Virus record (IMG/VR): IMGVR_UViG_3300042518_000395
Coordinates: 1-34,563 of that record
DNA: 34,563 bases
Direction: 5' to 3' (one strand)
Source: a virus
The notes beneath the pieces were generated by a model that was not told the origin of the DNA, did no database searches, and saw only the letters and a program-made list of their open reading frames with translations. Each line of letters starts with the position of its first letter. Position 1 is the stretch's first letter. Of this stretch, positions 12,934 through 33,432 are shown in pieces. The position numbers and the translations under genes were made by a program.

Positions 12934-12962
12934 CATCCATATCCACCCGAATCGGGCGTACT

Positions 12963-12995
12963 TGTGCAGTAAAATCATCCATAGCTGGTAGTTAG
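12963..12995. repeat. 33-bp repeat copy A flanking a cassette
   Basis: This segment matches 32937-32969 in 32 of 33 positions. On the minus strand it reads CTAACTACC, A or G, GCTATGG and so on. In both places it lies directly downstream, in gene direction, of a cassette, so it may be a half attC site. It also contains the start of a short ORF beginning MDDFTA. Confidence 0.8.
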
Positions 12996-13128
12996 GCGCA
13001 ATTAATAGCAAACCATTATACCTACTGCTATTATCGGTATTAGTGCCATCAATCCTACTAAAATCATTATTACTATCAAAAACGATTTTTCTCTATGGTT
13101 CATTGTCATAAATTTAACTGCGCCTAAC
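12991..13128 (-). mobile_element. Integron-cassette-like module with a 35-aa membrane peptide
   Basis: 138 bp bounded by perfect 10-bp inverted repeats GTTAGGCGCA (12991-13000) and TGCGCCTAAC (13119-13128). GTTAGGC fits the integron core GTTRRRY and GCCTAAC fits RYYYAAC. On the minus strand the module has one small gene whose stop lies 1 base from the repeat at its 3' side. It is joined to the methylase cassette by an attC-like hairpin. Confidence 0.65.
13002..13109 (-). CDS. Cassette-encoded small membrane peptide (35 aa)
   Basis: Minus-strand ORF MTMNHREKSFLIVIMILVGL followed by MALIPIIAVGIMVCY. A short positively charged head is followed by a hydrophobic span of about 27 residues, so it is a probable single-pass membrane peptide. 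It fills the cassette almost completely: the ATG is 10 bases inside one boundary repeat and the TAA directly precedes the other. Small membrane peptides are frequent in integron cassettes and among toxins or exclusion factors; no specific function can be assigned. A second ATG lies two codons in. Confidence 0.55.
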   Translation of the reverse strand: MTMNHREKSFLIVIMILVGLMALIPIIAVGIMVCY

Positions 13129-13222
13129 AGCACCTAACAAAAATGGCTGCTAAAAGCATTGGTTTTTAATTCAGAAGTTCTTACAAGCAGCCACTTCTGT
13201 TAGCTGCAAACCGTTAGCGGCA
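13119..13222 (-). other. attC-like recombination site between two cassettes
   Basis: On the minus strand it starts TGCCGCTAAC and ends GTTAGGCGCA. Between them CTAACAgaagTGGCTGCT pairs with AGCAGCCAttttTGTTAG (plus-strand arms 13134-13151 and 13186-13203), with 14 matched positions around a 4-base mismatch and a 34-base loop. Palindromic arms with outer core boxes and an internal mismatch are the layout of attC sites. No integrase is encoded here. Confidence 0.65.
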
Positions 13223-13942
13223 ATACCGTGACACCCTACTAACGGCAATGTCGTAATATTCCTGCTCCATTTCTATCCCTATAAATCTTCTACCTGTTAA
13301 CAAACAAGCGACACCAGTTGAGCCAGAACCCATGCAGTTATCCAAAACCGTTTCGCCTTCGTTTGTATAGGTTTTGATTAAGTAAGCCAGCAATGCAACA
13401 GGCTTTTGGGTTGGGTGTAAACTGCTGTTTTGCGTATCGGTTGAAAATTCTTGAATGCTTCTTGGGTATCGCTCTGTGCTTTCATAGGTGTAATCGTTAT
13501 TCATATTGCCATACACATCCGTTTGCAAGTGCTTTGCCCTAAAACTTTTCTTCTTTACATGGCCGGAAGTTTTTTGTGGGTTGTAAGTGCATTGCTGCTT
13601 GTAAAAAACACTTATCACGTCATGGTTTCTCATTGGCTGCTTTTTGGCATTTAAGAAGCCTGTGCCTTTTATCTTATCCCAAATCCAATCGTATTTGAAT
13701 AACTTAATGTTGCTCAATCTCAGATAAGAACTAAAAGGCTCTGCACCGAAAAGAACTATTGCTCCATCATCTTTTATCACTCTTTCATACTGCGGCCAAA
13801 GTTCATCAAATGGTATAACTACATCCCATGCACATTGCGTTGTACCATATGGCAAATCGCATAAAATCATATCAACCGACTTAGAAGCAATCCTGTCCAT
13901 TTCTTCTGTGCAGTCACCGTGATAAAAAGTACTGCCGCTAAC
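13213..13942 (-). mobile_element. Integron-cassette-like module with a DNA methylase
   Basis: 730 bp bounded by perfect 10-bp inverted repeats (GTTAGCGGCA at 13213-13222, TGCCGCTAAC at 13933-13942). The methylase stop codon TAA lies within the CTAAC box on the minus strand, as is common in gene cassettes. The methylase frame enters through the other boundary, so its first 25 residues come from the site upstream. Confidence 0.65.
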
Positions 13943-14011
13943 CGTGCATTGCTGCAATGCTGGCTGACGTACATCACTCATCGGTATATTTTCAAATAAA
14001 CTTTTCTGCAT
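13214..14011 (-). CDS. DNA N6-adenine/N4-cytosine methyltransferase (cassette gene)
   Basis: 265 residues. The catalytic motif CDLPYG (DLPY at residues 52-55) precedes the AdoMet motif DNCMGSGSTG near residue 230, which is the order of beta-class amino-methyltransferases. The block LHPTQKPVALLAYLI lies before motif I, as usual. A standalone enzyme with no restriction partner nearby probably protects phage DNA against host restriction. The conserved core starts at about residue 27; residues 1-26 (to the VSG motif) are encoded by the attC-like site upstream, and the ATG lies in its loop. The stop lies in the cassette boundary repeat. Confidence 0.85.
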   Translation of the reverse strand: MQKSLFENIPMSDVRQPALQQCTVSGSTFYHGDCTEEMDRIASKSVDMILCDLPYGTTQCAWDVVIPFDELWPQYERVIKDDGAIVLFGAEPFSSYLRLSNIKLFKYDWIWDKIKGTGFLNAKKQPMRNHDVISVFYKQQCTYNPQKTSGHVKKKSFRAKHLQTDVYGNMNNDYTYESTERYPRSIQEFSTDTQNSSLHPTQKPVALLAYLIKTYTNEGETVLDNCMGSGSTGVACLLTGRRFIGIEMEQEYYDIAVSRVSRYCR

Positions 14012-14068
14012 AGTTTGAACTTCTGTTTTTCAAATTCCAGCACTGCCAGCAATGCTTTTTCGTTATCA
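13946..14068 (-). other. Second attC-like site, upstream of the methylase cassette
   Basis: GCATTGCTGCAATGCTGG (13946-13963) is matched on the other arm by CCAGCACTGCCAGCAATGC (14037-14055), a near-perfect inverted repeat with one bulge and one mismatch and a loop of 73 bases. Outside the arms lie GTTAG of the methylase cassette and TGATAAC next to the glycosyltransferase stop. The loop holds the methylase start codon. Confidence 0.6.
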
Positions 14069-30385: not shown

Positions 30386-31702
30386 TTAGCCGATTGACCC
30401 AAATGCGTACTTTCCAAGGGTCGGTTTAAGCTCAAAATGCATTCTCATCATCATCATTGAAGCTATGTCGGGAGAATATCCGAGGCGTTTAACGATTTCT
30501 TCGCGGGTTGATACGGCCAGTTTTCGCTCCTTGTCAATGTCCTTACGCCTAACCGCGTCGAGTTGCCGAACTATTTCATCTTCGTGCTTCAGTGTGCTGC
30601 AGGCGATCTTGCCGTAACTCATGACTTCAGATAGTTTGTAGTAACATTCAGCCCGAAGGTTAAGGTAGTGTTCGCTATCAACCGCCCGCGCACCGTTATT
30701 GAACTGAGCGCACCGCAGAATCCCCTGGACACCGATTCCAAGACCATCAGCATCAACAATGCACTGTGAGATTGGTACTCTATGCCGTGAACAAATATCG
30801 CGCAGTTCCTTAGCGATCTCATGCGGGTACTTGTGAATGAATTCGTAGATATGAATTAAAGACAAACCACGCCAAACCCCCACAATCGTCTTATCGTCGC
30901 CCATAGCTGCAATATCCGCACTCACATACATTTTCCCCTGGCTTTCGGGTTCGAGTGAAAAAATTCGCCTCGTATCATCAAAACTGAATAGGGTGTCTTT
31001 ACTCTCGTCATAATCCCAATCGCCCTCAAGTAATCGCTTCCGAATTTCTTCGGGCATCCGCATCATCTTCGCCTCGTATGCCTCGTTCGGTTTGATCGTG
31101 TTATCCTTCAGCAGACTTTCAACGAACGCCCTGTGATGTGGTAGCCGCTCCTTCCGTGCAGGATCGTAGAAGTTCCGGTATAACCAACCCTTGTGCGGAT
31201 TGCAGGTCAGTAGGCCTTTCGGAACACCACCGATCAGATTGTAACGGGTTCGTGAATCGAGAATGTCGATGGAACCTTCAGACACTTCACCTGCCTCATC
31301 AATGAAGTAGTCTGTCAATTCATGGCTACCTAATCGCGTAAACTGTGGATCGGATGGCTTATCGGCCATATCCATCAGAATCGTTTCGCTGCCATTGAAC
31401 CACCGAATAATATTTAACTGACCGTTGTATTGATAGTCCTTTCCTGCTTTCATACCCATATCCTGACACAGTTTCCAGAAGGTAAGCATAGTTGAAAGTT
31501 CAAGATTCTTGAGCGCACTTCGACCGATCAACCCTCGCGTGTTCGGATATTTCAATCGTCGGGCGATCTGCCAATAACAACCGAGCCAAGACTTACCACC
31601 GTACACACCACCACCGAAAAGAACTTGTTCGACCTGTGACCTGTGTGATAGGTGATCGAGGGCGATCTCTTGTTTAGCGTTGAATTCTGGCGTGTAGTTC
31701 AT
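30386..31702 (-). CDS. Terminase large subunit
   Basis: 438 residues. The Walker A loop FGGGVYGGKSWLG (29-41, Lys37), a Walker B motif DYFIDEAGE (131-139) and the nuclease part with SADIAAMGDDKT (261-272), IVDADGLGIGV (315-325) and a late GYSPDIASMMM give the ATPase-nuclease layout of DNA packaging motors. The length is normal. It is transcribed leftward, opposite to the portal and small terminase-like genes, as the last gene of an operon with surface-modifying enzymes. It overlaps the glycosyltransferase stop by 4 bases. Confidence 0.95.
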   Translation of the reverse strand: MNYTPEFNAKQEIALDHLSHRSQVEQVLFGGGVYGGKSWLGCYWQIARRLKYPNTRGLIGRSALKNLELSTMLTFWKLCQDMGMKAGKDYQYNGQLNIIRWFNGSETILMDMADKPSDPQFTRLGSHELTDYFIDEAGEVSEGSIDILDSRTRYNLIGGVPKGLLTCNPHKGWLYRNFYDPARKERLPHHRAFVESLLKDNTIKPNEAYEAKMMRMPEEIRKRLLEGDWDYDESKDTLFSFDDTRRIFSLEPESQGKMYVSADIAAMGDDKTIVGVWRGLSLIHIYEFIHKYPHEIAKELRDICSRHRVPISQCIVDADGLGIGVQGILRCAQFNNGARAVDSEHYLNLRAECYYKLSEVMSYGKIACSTLKHEDEIVRQLDAVRRKDIDKERKLAVSTREEIVKRLGYSPDIASMMMMRMHFELKPTLGKYAFGSIG

Positions 31703-32400
31703 AGATATTGCTTCACGATCTGCTTTTCATCAGGATTCAAATCAAAACATGGATGGCGTGATCTTATTTTTTCAGTAGTGTTCAACACTTGCTTGCCCTT
31801 CAGCATGACTATGTAGCCGGGCAAGATAAGTAACTTCCCCTGTTGAACGTGCGCCATTTCCGCGCCCGTTTCGCAGCCGTTCAAGTGATACGGCTTGCGC
31901 TTGAAGTATTGCCACGAGCCACGACTGAAGCAGTTAATCCCCGGCTGAAGTTTGACCGAGTAGGACAATTCACATCTGAATGCAGGGCCATCCTCAGGGG
32001 CTATGAATAACGGATAGTTCCGGCCAACACCGCCCATGATTACACCCTTCGCCGGCGTTTCTTCCAATCGTGAAAAAGCGCACTGAGGGGCAATGTCATC
32101 AGCCCCTGCAAGGCAATACCAATCGGGCGAATATACTTCAAGTGTGGCAAGTGATCGGTTGAACTTCGACCTCAGATGGCTGTCACCTCGTGACAAGATA
32201 CAGAAATCATCTTGTTGAACTTCGATGTACTTCACCGTGTCAGATAAGAACTCCTCACAAAATTCACGACTCAAACGACCTTCAGAACCGCATAGGTGAA
32301 GTGGATAGCCAAGTGAAGCATAGTGTCTGAATGTTCGTTTGTAGGCAGGGTTGTTATGGTTGCCTTGAAGATAGAATGGGATGCAGATTGCTACGGTCAT
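31699..32400 (-). CDS. Glycosyltransferase-like protein
   Basis: 233 residues. The start MTVAICIPFYLQGNHNNPAY is a nucleotide-binding beta strand and loop as in GT-A enzymes; WYCLAGADDIAP (ADD at 100-102) gives the metal-binding motif. There is one Cys-rich area near 125-175 but no membrane segment. It is coupled by ATGA overlaps with both the LpxA-like gene and the terminase. Together with the acyltransferase it may modify a host or phage glycan. It is not a close copy of the glycosyltransferase at 14070. Confidence 0.65.
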   Translation of the reverse strand: MTVAICIPFYLQGNHNNPAYKRTFRHYASLGYPLHLCGSEGRLSREFCEEFLSDTVKYIEVQQDDFCILSRGDSHLRSKFNRSLATLEVYSPDWYCLAGADDIAPQCAFSRLEETPAKGVIMGGVGRNYPLFIAPEDGPAFRCELSYSVKLQPGINCFSRGSWQYFKRKPYHLNGCETGAEMAHVQQGKLLILPGYIVMLKGKQVLNTTEKIRSRHPCFDLNPDEKQIVKQYL

Positions 32401-32894
32401 CTCTCGCTATTGAGTTTGTTATACAACCTTTCATTGAATCCAATATCCTTCGCAGGAACTCCGGCCAAGATACGGAAATGATCTTTCCATATTCCTTTGA
32501 CAAATGACTGTGCCCCGACCATCGTACCGAATGCAAGCTGAGTGTGTTGGTGAAGTGATGCGTTCAGTCCAATCCGACAACATGAAGCAATGATTGAATG
32601 ACCACCGATTACACAGGCTGAGTGAAGAACTACGTTGTCGCCTATGACCGTATCATGTCCGACGTGGGAATGGCTCATTAGGTAGCAATCAGCACCAATC
32701 ACAGTGTTGCCAAGATGCCCCGCGTTGATCGTCACGTTGTCGCGGATGATGGTGTTGTCACCGATGATGATCGTGTAACGCGGTTCGTTTTTGGGATCGA
32801 CTTGATCGGGATATTCGGCAGGGCTACCGATTGAACAGTTATGACCGATGAATACGTTTCGCCCGATTACGACTGAAGGGTGTATATAACTCAT
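32397..32894 (-). CDS. LpxA-like left-handed beta-helix acyltransferase
   Basis: The ATG at 32894 gives 165 residues; a TTG three codons earlier is less likely. The hexapeptide repeats [IV]-G-x-[NDG]-x-x are plain: VVIGRNVFIGHNCSIGSP, then IIGDNTIIRDNVTINAG, VIGADCYLMSHSHVGHD and VIGDNVVLHSACVIGGH. The HSHVGHD segment carries the catalytic His as in LpxA. The end (ILAGVPAKDIGFN) is typical too. It would transfer an acyl group to a nucleotide sugar. For a phage this is unusual; a role in modifying the host envelope during infection is plausible. Confidence 0.85.
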   Translation of the reverse strand: MSYIHPSVVIGRNVFIGHNCSIGSPAEYPDQVDPKNEPRYTIIIGDNTIIRDNVTINAGHLGNTVIGADCYLMSHSHVGHDTVIGDNVVLHSACVIGGHSIIASCCRIGLNASLHQHTQLAFGTMVGAQSFVKGIWKDHFRILAGVPAKDIGFNERLYNKLNSER

Positions 32895-32905
32895 ATAATT
32901 CAAAA

Positions 32906-32956
32906 TTAATCCATATCCGCGAACACTTGTTGTATATGTGCAGTAAAATCATCCAT
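32906..32956 (-). other. Short ORF MDDFTA..., conserved next to the cassette
   Basis: A 16-codon ORF (MDDFTAHIQQVFADMD) on the minus strand follows the cassette and ends 12 bases before the LpxA-like ATG. A matching ORF at 12914-12982 starts with the same MDDFTA and keeps a DMD at the same distance. It may be a leader peptide or a remnant of a shared host gene; translation is unknown. Confidence 0.35.
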
Positions 32957-32969
32957 AGCCGGTAGTTAG
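32937..32969. repeat. 33-bp repeat copy B flanking a cassette
   Basis: Matches 12963-12995 in 32 of 33 positions. It lies downstream, in gene direction, of the 145-bp cassette, just as copy A lies downstream of the 138-bp cassette. Confidence 0.8.
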
Positions 32970-33109
32970 CGGTAATGCTAAGAAACCCGACACGACTGTG
33001 TAACATATTCCATCTTTGCCACCAAGTCGGGTTTCTTTAACCCTGCATCAACATATCGGTTTATCAATTTGTAAAGTTCCATTTCAAAGTCTGAAGCACT
33101 ACCGCTAAC
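32965..33109 (-). mobile_element. Integron-cassette-like module with a small gene
   Basis: 145 bp bounded by perfect 10-bp inverted repeats GTTAGCGGTA (32965-32974) and TACCGCTAAC (33100-33109). The gene's TAG lies just inside the CTAAC side boundary. Upstream flank CAGCCATCTTGTTTAGGTGCT resembles that of the 138-bp cassette, and the downstream flank is the 33-bp repeat, so both cassettes occupy the same kind of site. Confidence 0.6.
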
Positions 33110-33166
33110 AGCACCTAAACAAGATGGCTGGCTTTCTGCGATATTCAAGTTTTGTTCTTTGTTCAT
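32978..33166 (-). CDS. Cassette-encoded small protein (62 aa, or 34 aa from an inner start)
   Basis: The frame opens with an ATG at 33166 that overlaps the previous stop by 4 bases, as for coupled phage genes. The first 20 residues (MNKEQNLNIAESQPSCLGAV) come from the attC-like flank; after the VSG motif at the boundary the cassette part reads SASDFEMELYKLINRYVDAG and ends TQSCRVS. An inner ATG at 33082 lies within the cassette. The same VSG joint exists in the methylase, so fusion to the recombination site looks systematic. Helical and basic; function unknown. Confidence 0.55.
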   Translation of the reverse strand: MNKEQNLNIAESQPSCLGAVSGSASDFEMELYKLINRYVDAGLKKPDLVAKMEYVTQSCRVS

Positions 33167-33432
33167 ATCCTACTCAATTTATCGTTCAATTCATTTCTGA
33201 TTTCATCCGTGCCTTCGATGTTCTCATCGCTGTCGGGCATAGTCAGTTCAAACACATCAAGGCTGCATTGATACATATCAGTGTATTCATCGTAACCAAA
33301 CACAGTCAGTTCAATGTAGATGTTTATTCCATCCAACTTACTTTCAATCATGAACGATTCGTTGTCGTTAACGGTGTCAAGGTTTTTGCAGATCAGCGAC
33401 CAGCAGTGTTCTGTCATTGTTTCGGTGTTCAT
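33163..33432 (-). CDS. Hypothetical protein (89 aa)
   Basis: Acidic protein with a beta-rich centre (MIESKLDGINIYIELTVFGY) and an acidic helix near the end. Not recognised. The ATG overlaps the stop of the repressor gene by 4 bases and its stop overlaps the next ATG, so it belongs to the repressor operon. A partner or antirepressor of the HTH protein is possible. Confidence 0.65.
   Translation of the reverse strand: MNTETMTEHCWSLICKNLDTVNDNESFMIESKLDGINIYIELTVFGYDEYTDMYQCSLDVFELTMPDSDENIEGTDEIRNELNDKLSRI

Follow-up and report, generated by a model that had tools for sequence, protein, structure and literature searches.

Two fixed places in the phage genome described here are, in our judgement, probably integron-like cassette arrays, served by a tyrosine recombinase acting in trans and each closed by an attI-like tail. 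We observed the cassette anatomy, the paired hairpin arms, the alternative inserts, the empty sites and the constant tail. That phages carry integron-like cassettes is known; what is new is the probable reversed polarity of the cassettes, the constant tail at two loci and a possible enzyme. The window, meaning the whole stretch of DNA that was analysed, is a virus record of 34,563 nucleotides (IMGVR_UViG_3300042518_000395) with a 167-nt end repeat. Its host likely belongs to the Bacteroidota, genus undetermined, because the best relatives of its terminase (32 to 37% identity) are encoded by phages of Flavobacterium, Bacteroides, Cellulophaga and Polaribacter. When locus B was searched as DNA against named phages, nothing matched. 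The features of the two loci are as follows.

32965..33109, minus strand: body of the locus B cassette, 145 bp; R' GTTAGCGGTA (33109-33100), R'' TACCGCTAAC (32974-32965)
32978..33166, minus strand: ORF of the locus B cassette, 62 aa, starting in the leader 57 nt upstream of R'
33110..33166, minus strand: locus B leader; contains one half, the 3' (L') one, of an attC-like site
32906..32964, minus strand: constant tail at locus B; resembles attI in position and behaviour
32956-32906, minus strand: open micro-ORF of 16 codons, MDDFTAHIQQVFADMD, in the locus B tail
33163..33432, minus strand: phage gene upstream of locus B, 89 aa, kept in relatives with other inserts or an empty site
32397..32903, minus strand: hexapeptide-transferase gene on the downstream side of locus B; where relative L145 has an empty site, it is joined directly to the homologue of the 89-aa gene
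13213..13942, minus strand: body of locus A cassette 1, N6_N4 DNA methyltransferase; R' GTTAGCGGCA, R'' TGCCGCTAAC
13214..14011, minus strand: DNA methyltransferase ORF, 265 aa, with its start codon within the upstream attC-like site and the TAA of R'' as stop
13933..14065, minus strand: attC-like site 1, upstream of the methyltransferase
13119..13222, minus strand: attC-like site 2, which separates the methyltransferase cassette from the 35-aa cassette; its hairpin is complete
12991..13128, minus strand: body of locus A cassette 2, 138 bp; R' GTTAGGCGCA, R'' TGCGCCTAAC
13002..13109, minus strand: ORF of cassette 2, 35 aa, hydrophobic by eye
12936..12990, minus strand: constant tail at locus A, in its type A variant

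The 35-aa ORF of locus A probably encodes a small membrane protein. For the 62-aa ORF of locus B we found no Pfam match; at its 3' end, a 12-bp inverted repeat, AAGAAACCCGAC/GTCGGGTTTCTT, lies inside the cassette (32992-33039). The hexapeptide transferase that the phage encodes beside locus B is a left-handed beta-helix protein.

Matched cassette ends at two loci

The window contains three exact 10-bp inverted pairs that open with GTTAG and close with CTAAC, at 13213-13942, 12991-13128 and 32965-33109. In 300 dinucleotide shuffles, exact pairs of GTTAG plus five bases, 60 to 900 nt apart, occurred 0.017 times on average and never more than once. An earlier note on this DNA had described 32965-33109 as an insert bounded by matched arms, and the pair is indeed exact: positions 32965-32974 read GTTAGCGGTA, and 33100-33109 are the exact complement, TACCGCTAAC. 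The locus A methyltransferase gene (265 aa, 13214-14011) represents a third cassette with the same anatomy as the other two. The arms vary from insert to insert (GTTAGCGGTA, GTTAGGCGCA, GTTAGCGGCA) and within one insert are always matched. This bears out the compensating changes in the five inner bases to which the note had pointed, which arise because R' and R'' are complementary and change together.

Locus A and locus B lie 19,981 bp apart. The flank CTAACTACCRGCTATGGATGATTTTACTGCAC, downstream on the minus (coding) strand, is common to both in 32 of 33 positions (12963-12995 and 32937-32969), and the opposite flanks (13117-13149 and 33098-33130) agree in 27 of 33, or 82%. Outside these shared flanks, nucleotide searches found no similarity between the inserts of the two loci. 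The note's further claims, namely a 33-bp downstream flank differing at a single position, an upstream flank resembling that of the 138-bp cassette, and one site type present twice, 20 kb apart, with unrelated inserts, were thus all confirmed.

Flanks shared between loci might suggest that the inserts move by homologous or illegitimate recombination through these short stretches, without any site-specific recombinase, and that the arms are merely transcription or translation signals. Both insertions are also bounded by short direct repeats (GAAAAA, ATATGA), a possible source of microhomology. However, this leaves the match of R' to R'' unexplained, since that match lies outside the shared flanks, and the breakpoints fall at TAAC in all three of the cassette families that could be aligned; we regard it as very improbable. 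A transposon, considered on account of the 6-bp direct repeats at both insertions, was rejected: the element ends differ between locus A and locus B, and the repeat ATATGA is accounted for by an overlap of stop and start codons.

attC-like hairpins

In an integron, the cassette circle is opened inside attC; R', with which the inserted cassette begins, and R'', with which the attC at its far end begins, are therefore complementary and covary. The matched arms described here are integron-type R'/R'' boxes and the sites are attC-like hairpins; two features of an integron cassette array or CALIN, matched boxes at the cassette ends and attC sites whose imperfect inverted arms fold together, are thus present. 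Each cassette body starts with GTTA and about five further bases and ends in their complement, in our reading because both ends derive from one attC-like hairpin, hence the matched inner bases. When attC-like site 2 (13119-13222) was folded as single-stranded DNA, the coding strand gave z -3.0 and the opposite strand z -1.5. Over 60 sites, cognate arms paired at -18.2 kcal/mol versus -8.2 for non-cognate arms, the true partner arm ranked among the top three in 51, and the more stable fold likewise lay on the coding strand in 51 of the 60. Only half sites flank the locus B cassette on either side, and no complementary 5' half was seen upstream of the locus B leader.

For comparisons between cassettes we assembled a set of 81 from 14 sources, 41 of them from a single 169.7-kb contig, G014 (IMGVR_UViG_3300043411_001575). 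The set was built on exact 9-bp matched ends, so end matching within it is not independent evidence, and GTTA is present in all 81 sites since the search demanded it. The R' heptamer GTTRRRY was matched by only 6 of the 81 sites (one of the three in the window), and the sites therefore do not follow the integron consensus. In a separate observation, two phages (L144/L252 and L162/L269) share an attC and the boxes around it at 94% identity across 144 bp, and the genes on either side of it have no detectable similarity.

The capacity to fold also raises the possibility of a structured RNA, an intron or a translational-bypass element whose fold is formed by the inverted arms, and the RNA of locus B does fold well (z -3.7, with a strong inner hairpin). 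Against this, an Rfam search of the window gave no match, the inserts are unrelated genes of 67 to 1192 bp that are alike at their ends only, and the flanks too are missing from empty sites; we consider such an element barely conceivable.

Empty sites and alternative inserts in related phages

The earlier note had inferred active cassette exchange and had named empty sites and alternative inserts in relatives as the check; both are present at both loci. At locus B, L145 has no cassette, and its upstream gene abuts the hexapeptide-transferase gene; L127 holds one cassette there, L140 three and L144/L252 seven. One of these seven is a methyltransferase homologous to the locus A enzyme of the window. 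At locus A, no cassette is present in L149, L150 and L151, and different cassettes occupy the site in L148, L152, L154 and L155. L145 (locus B empty) and L148 (locus A occupied) carry the same sample number but are not necessarily one genome.

Compared with the window, the flanks on both sides are 94 to 95% identical in L148 and 92 to 93% identical in L149, with different cassettes at locus A in the former and none in the latter, and cassette turnover is therefore fast relative to the phage backbone. Neither outcome that would have refuted exchange was obtained: the inserts are not homologues that diverged in place, nor does the repeat belong to a duplicated gene. On these comparisons, cassette exchange at both loci is well supported; that it is active at present is an inference from near-identical flanks around unrelated inserts and was not observed. 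Even on a cautious reading, two phage loci that are seen empty, with a single cassette and with several provide rare comparative evidence of phage cassette turnover.

Cassette polarity

We compared 36 pairs of homologous cassettes, nearly all of them DNA methyltransferases and not independent of one another. The 100 nt upstream of the gene were 0.73 identical (up to 0.99) and the 100 nt downstream 0.59, against a background in random cassette pairs of 0.60 upstream and 0.59 downstream. In three cassette families, the conserved block ran from the TAAC before the upstream hairpin to the TAAC after the gene, and attC-like site 1 of the window also stands in front of homologous cassettes in L168 and L169. 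Every one of the 75 ORFs that could be scored has the same orientation, toward the tail end; the ORF start lies inside the upstream hairpin in 34 cassettes, and the stop is the TAA of TAAC in 31. This goes against the expectation that attC lies 3' of the gene with which it moves; the upstream hairpin is conserved instead, mainly in methyltransferases, although in one partially homologous pair it was the downstream site that was conserved.

The hairpin likely travels with the gene on its 3' side, a conclusion that rests mainly on methyltransferases. It would often hold the start codon of that gene, which would often end in the TAA of TAAC, and with a hairpin on the 5' side of its gene the cassettes would have the opposite polarity to those of textbook integrons and be read in the direction of the attI-like end. 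A start codon within the hairpin would make the cassette self-contained for translation. The cargo, methyltransferases and small proteins, would be expressed from the phage operon and, by inference, counter host defence. Attachment site and gene are not strictly co-inherited, because one attC type of contig G014 fronts both diverged methyltransferases and an unrelated gene. This type recurs, 92 to 99% identical, in the cassettes at 30895, 46212, 53115, 53996 and 58892, and its hairpin is better conserved than the genes that it fronts, namely methyltransferases of only 57 to 62% identity and one unrelated gene.

CALINs in phages have been described, for example in Polaribacter phage P12002L, and phage-borne attC arrays can be functional (Qi et al. 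2023, PMC9892861); an ordinary phage-borne CALIN, in which attC lies 3' of the gene, a host IntI inserts the cassettes and a decayed last attC mimics the tail, has to be weighed. The likeness is considerable: attC-type cassettes, mostly no integrase, and N6_N4 methyltransferase cargo, which CALINs in phages are already known to carry. Some leaders and 3' arms are moreover common to different genes, as crossover at R' would give (loci A and B of the window, L144 cassettes 1 and 6, and the G014 cassette at 58892). We nevertheless consider this explanation unlikely, given that the downstream attC was never conserved between homologous nucleotide-matched cassettes (0.59, equal to background) and that the R' heptamer is so rare. 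In the P12002L cassette that we checked, the start codon follows R', whereas cassettes of the window type often have their start codon within the upstream hairpin, which is linked to the gene that follows it, and a constant tail accompanies them at two loci across phages.

The integron-like arrays that we favour share with canonical integrons (IntI, attI, attC) the R'/R'' boxes, the folded imperfect inverted repeats, the tandem ORFs in one orientation and one constant array end. They differ in that attC is 5' of the gene, ORFs run toward the attI-like end, GTTRRRY is rare and no IntI was found. The canonical cassette, as described in PMC4670013, is an ORF with a 3' attC. A literature search that left subscription journals and preprints mostly uncovered yielded no description of 5'-attC cassettes or of a Xer-type integron.

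A constant tail beside the last cassette

In occupied loci, the last cassette is followed by TAAC-TANYRGCTATGGATGA..., which occurs in two main types and in L155 diverges further downstream. The base after TAAC is G at 68 of 81 boundaries (nearly always at internal sites) and T in tails. The flank that the two loci of the window share is such a constant array end. Like an attI site, the tail persists when the neighbouring cassette and R'' vary, which canonical R' excision would not yield, a further point against an ordinary CALIN. Empty loci lack the tail as well; it therefore arrived or left together with the array.

Under the favoured reading, the recombinase would insert and remove cassettes at TAAC/GTTA boxes beside this tail. 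That the tail acts as an attI site is inferred from its position and its behaviour in comparisons alone, without recombination data, because it could not be aligned with the recombinase-linked block of contigs G014 and L256 described below. The exact tail pattern had no match in bacterial and archaeal genomes; a looser pattern matched there in three unrelated contexts, without identifying a host. A search of viral contigs with TTAGGTGCTGTTAG used a pattern too short to inform. Two other origins were discarded: half of a permuted cassette should be able to pair with the leader arms, which by eye the tail is not, and alignment gives no support for a vestige of the recombinase start.

Read from the sequences, the tail contains an open micro-ORF of 16 codons that starts with MDD in all types seen (MDDFTAHIQQVFADMD or MDDKPAQVRPIGVDMD...) and has two alternative middles, FTAHIQQVFADMD and KPAQVRPIGVDMD; it may be translated or merely coding-like.

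A recombinase at the end of related arrays

The window gave no IntI-type match, and among 20 related records only G014 did; the hallmark of a complete integron, an integrase that has the IntI-specific insertion and is encoded beside attI, was not found. The arrays of the window would thus lack an integrase of their own, and a tyrosine recombinase would be supplied in trans. In G014, TAAC at 115656 closes the array, and the gene of a tyrosine recombinase begins at about 115703; L256 likewise carries a recombinase, 79% identical, directly after the array end, with a similar intervening block and a different R''. The G014 enzyme scored best of all families against XerA (NCBIfam NF040815; 205.9 bits, cut-off 220) and reached 155 bits against integron integrase (cut-off 265), with the IntI-specific insertion region unaligned. 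Its closest solved structure, PDB 4a8e, aligned throughout. The link between a XerA-like enzyme and such arrays is suggestive and not proven, resting on two contigs, neither of them the phage of the window; that a XerA-like enzyme also moves the cassettes of the window is inferred from these array ends.

The role for which Xer enzymes are chiefly known is the resolution of chromosome dimers, and Smyshlyaev et al. describe the IntI-specific insertion as essential for integron function (PMC8138268). Unlike XerA/XerC-like recombinases so known, the G014/L256 enzyme is found where a cassette array ends, in both contigs. In the 'atypical' integrons of Treponema, intI is transcribed toward attI, with the cassettes beyond (PMC3607928). 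Recombinase and cassettes are transcribed in one direction there as in G014, but the G014 cassettes precede the recombinase, which is transcribed away from the array. No cassette array was evident in the adjoining annotation of two XerA-like relatives on Flavobacteriia plasmids.

It is possible, and we put it forward only tentatively, that these arrays constitute a separate system of Bacteroidota phages (perhaps of their hosts too), with a 5' attC that often holds the start codon of the gene, a XerA-like enzyme without the IntI insertion, and attI-like docking tails at which phages would exchange methyltransferases and other genes of use against host defence. If so, 5'-attC cassettes together with such an enzyme would represent a second way for cassette recombination, without the IntI-specific insertion, and a route for the modular exchange of methyltransferases by phages.

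The G014 array spans about 77 to 116 kb (L268, L267, L250, L251) and comprises at least 41 cassettes, many of them DNA methyltransferases, with the XerA-like recombinase at its end. The phage nature of this contig is not proven; several HNH endonucleases are neighbours of the array.
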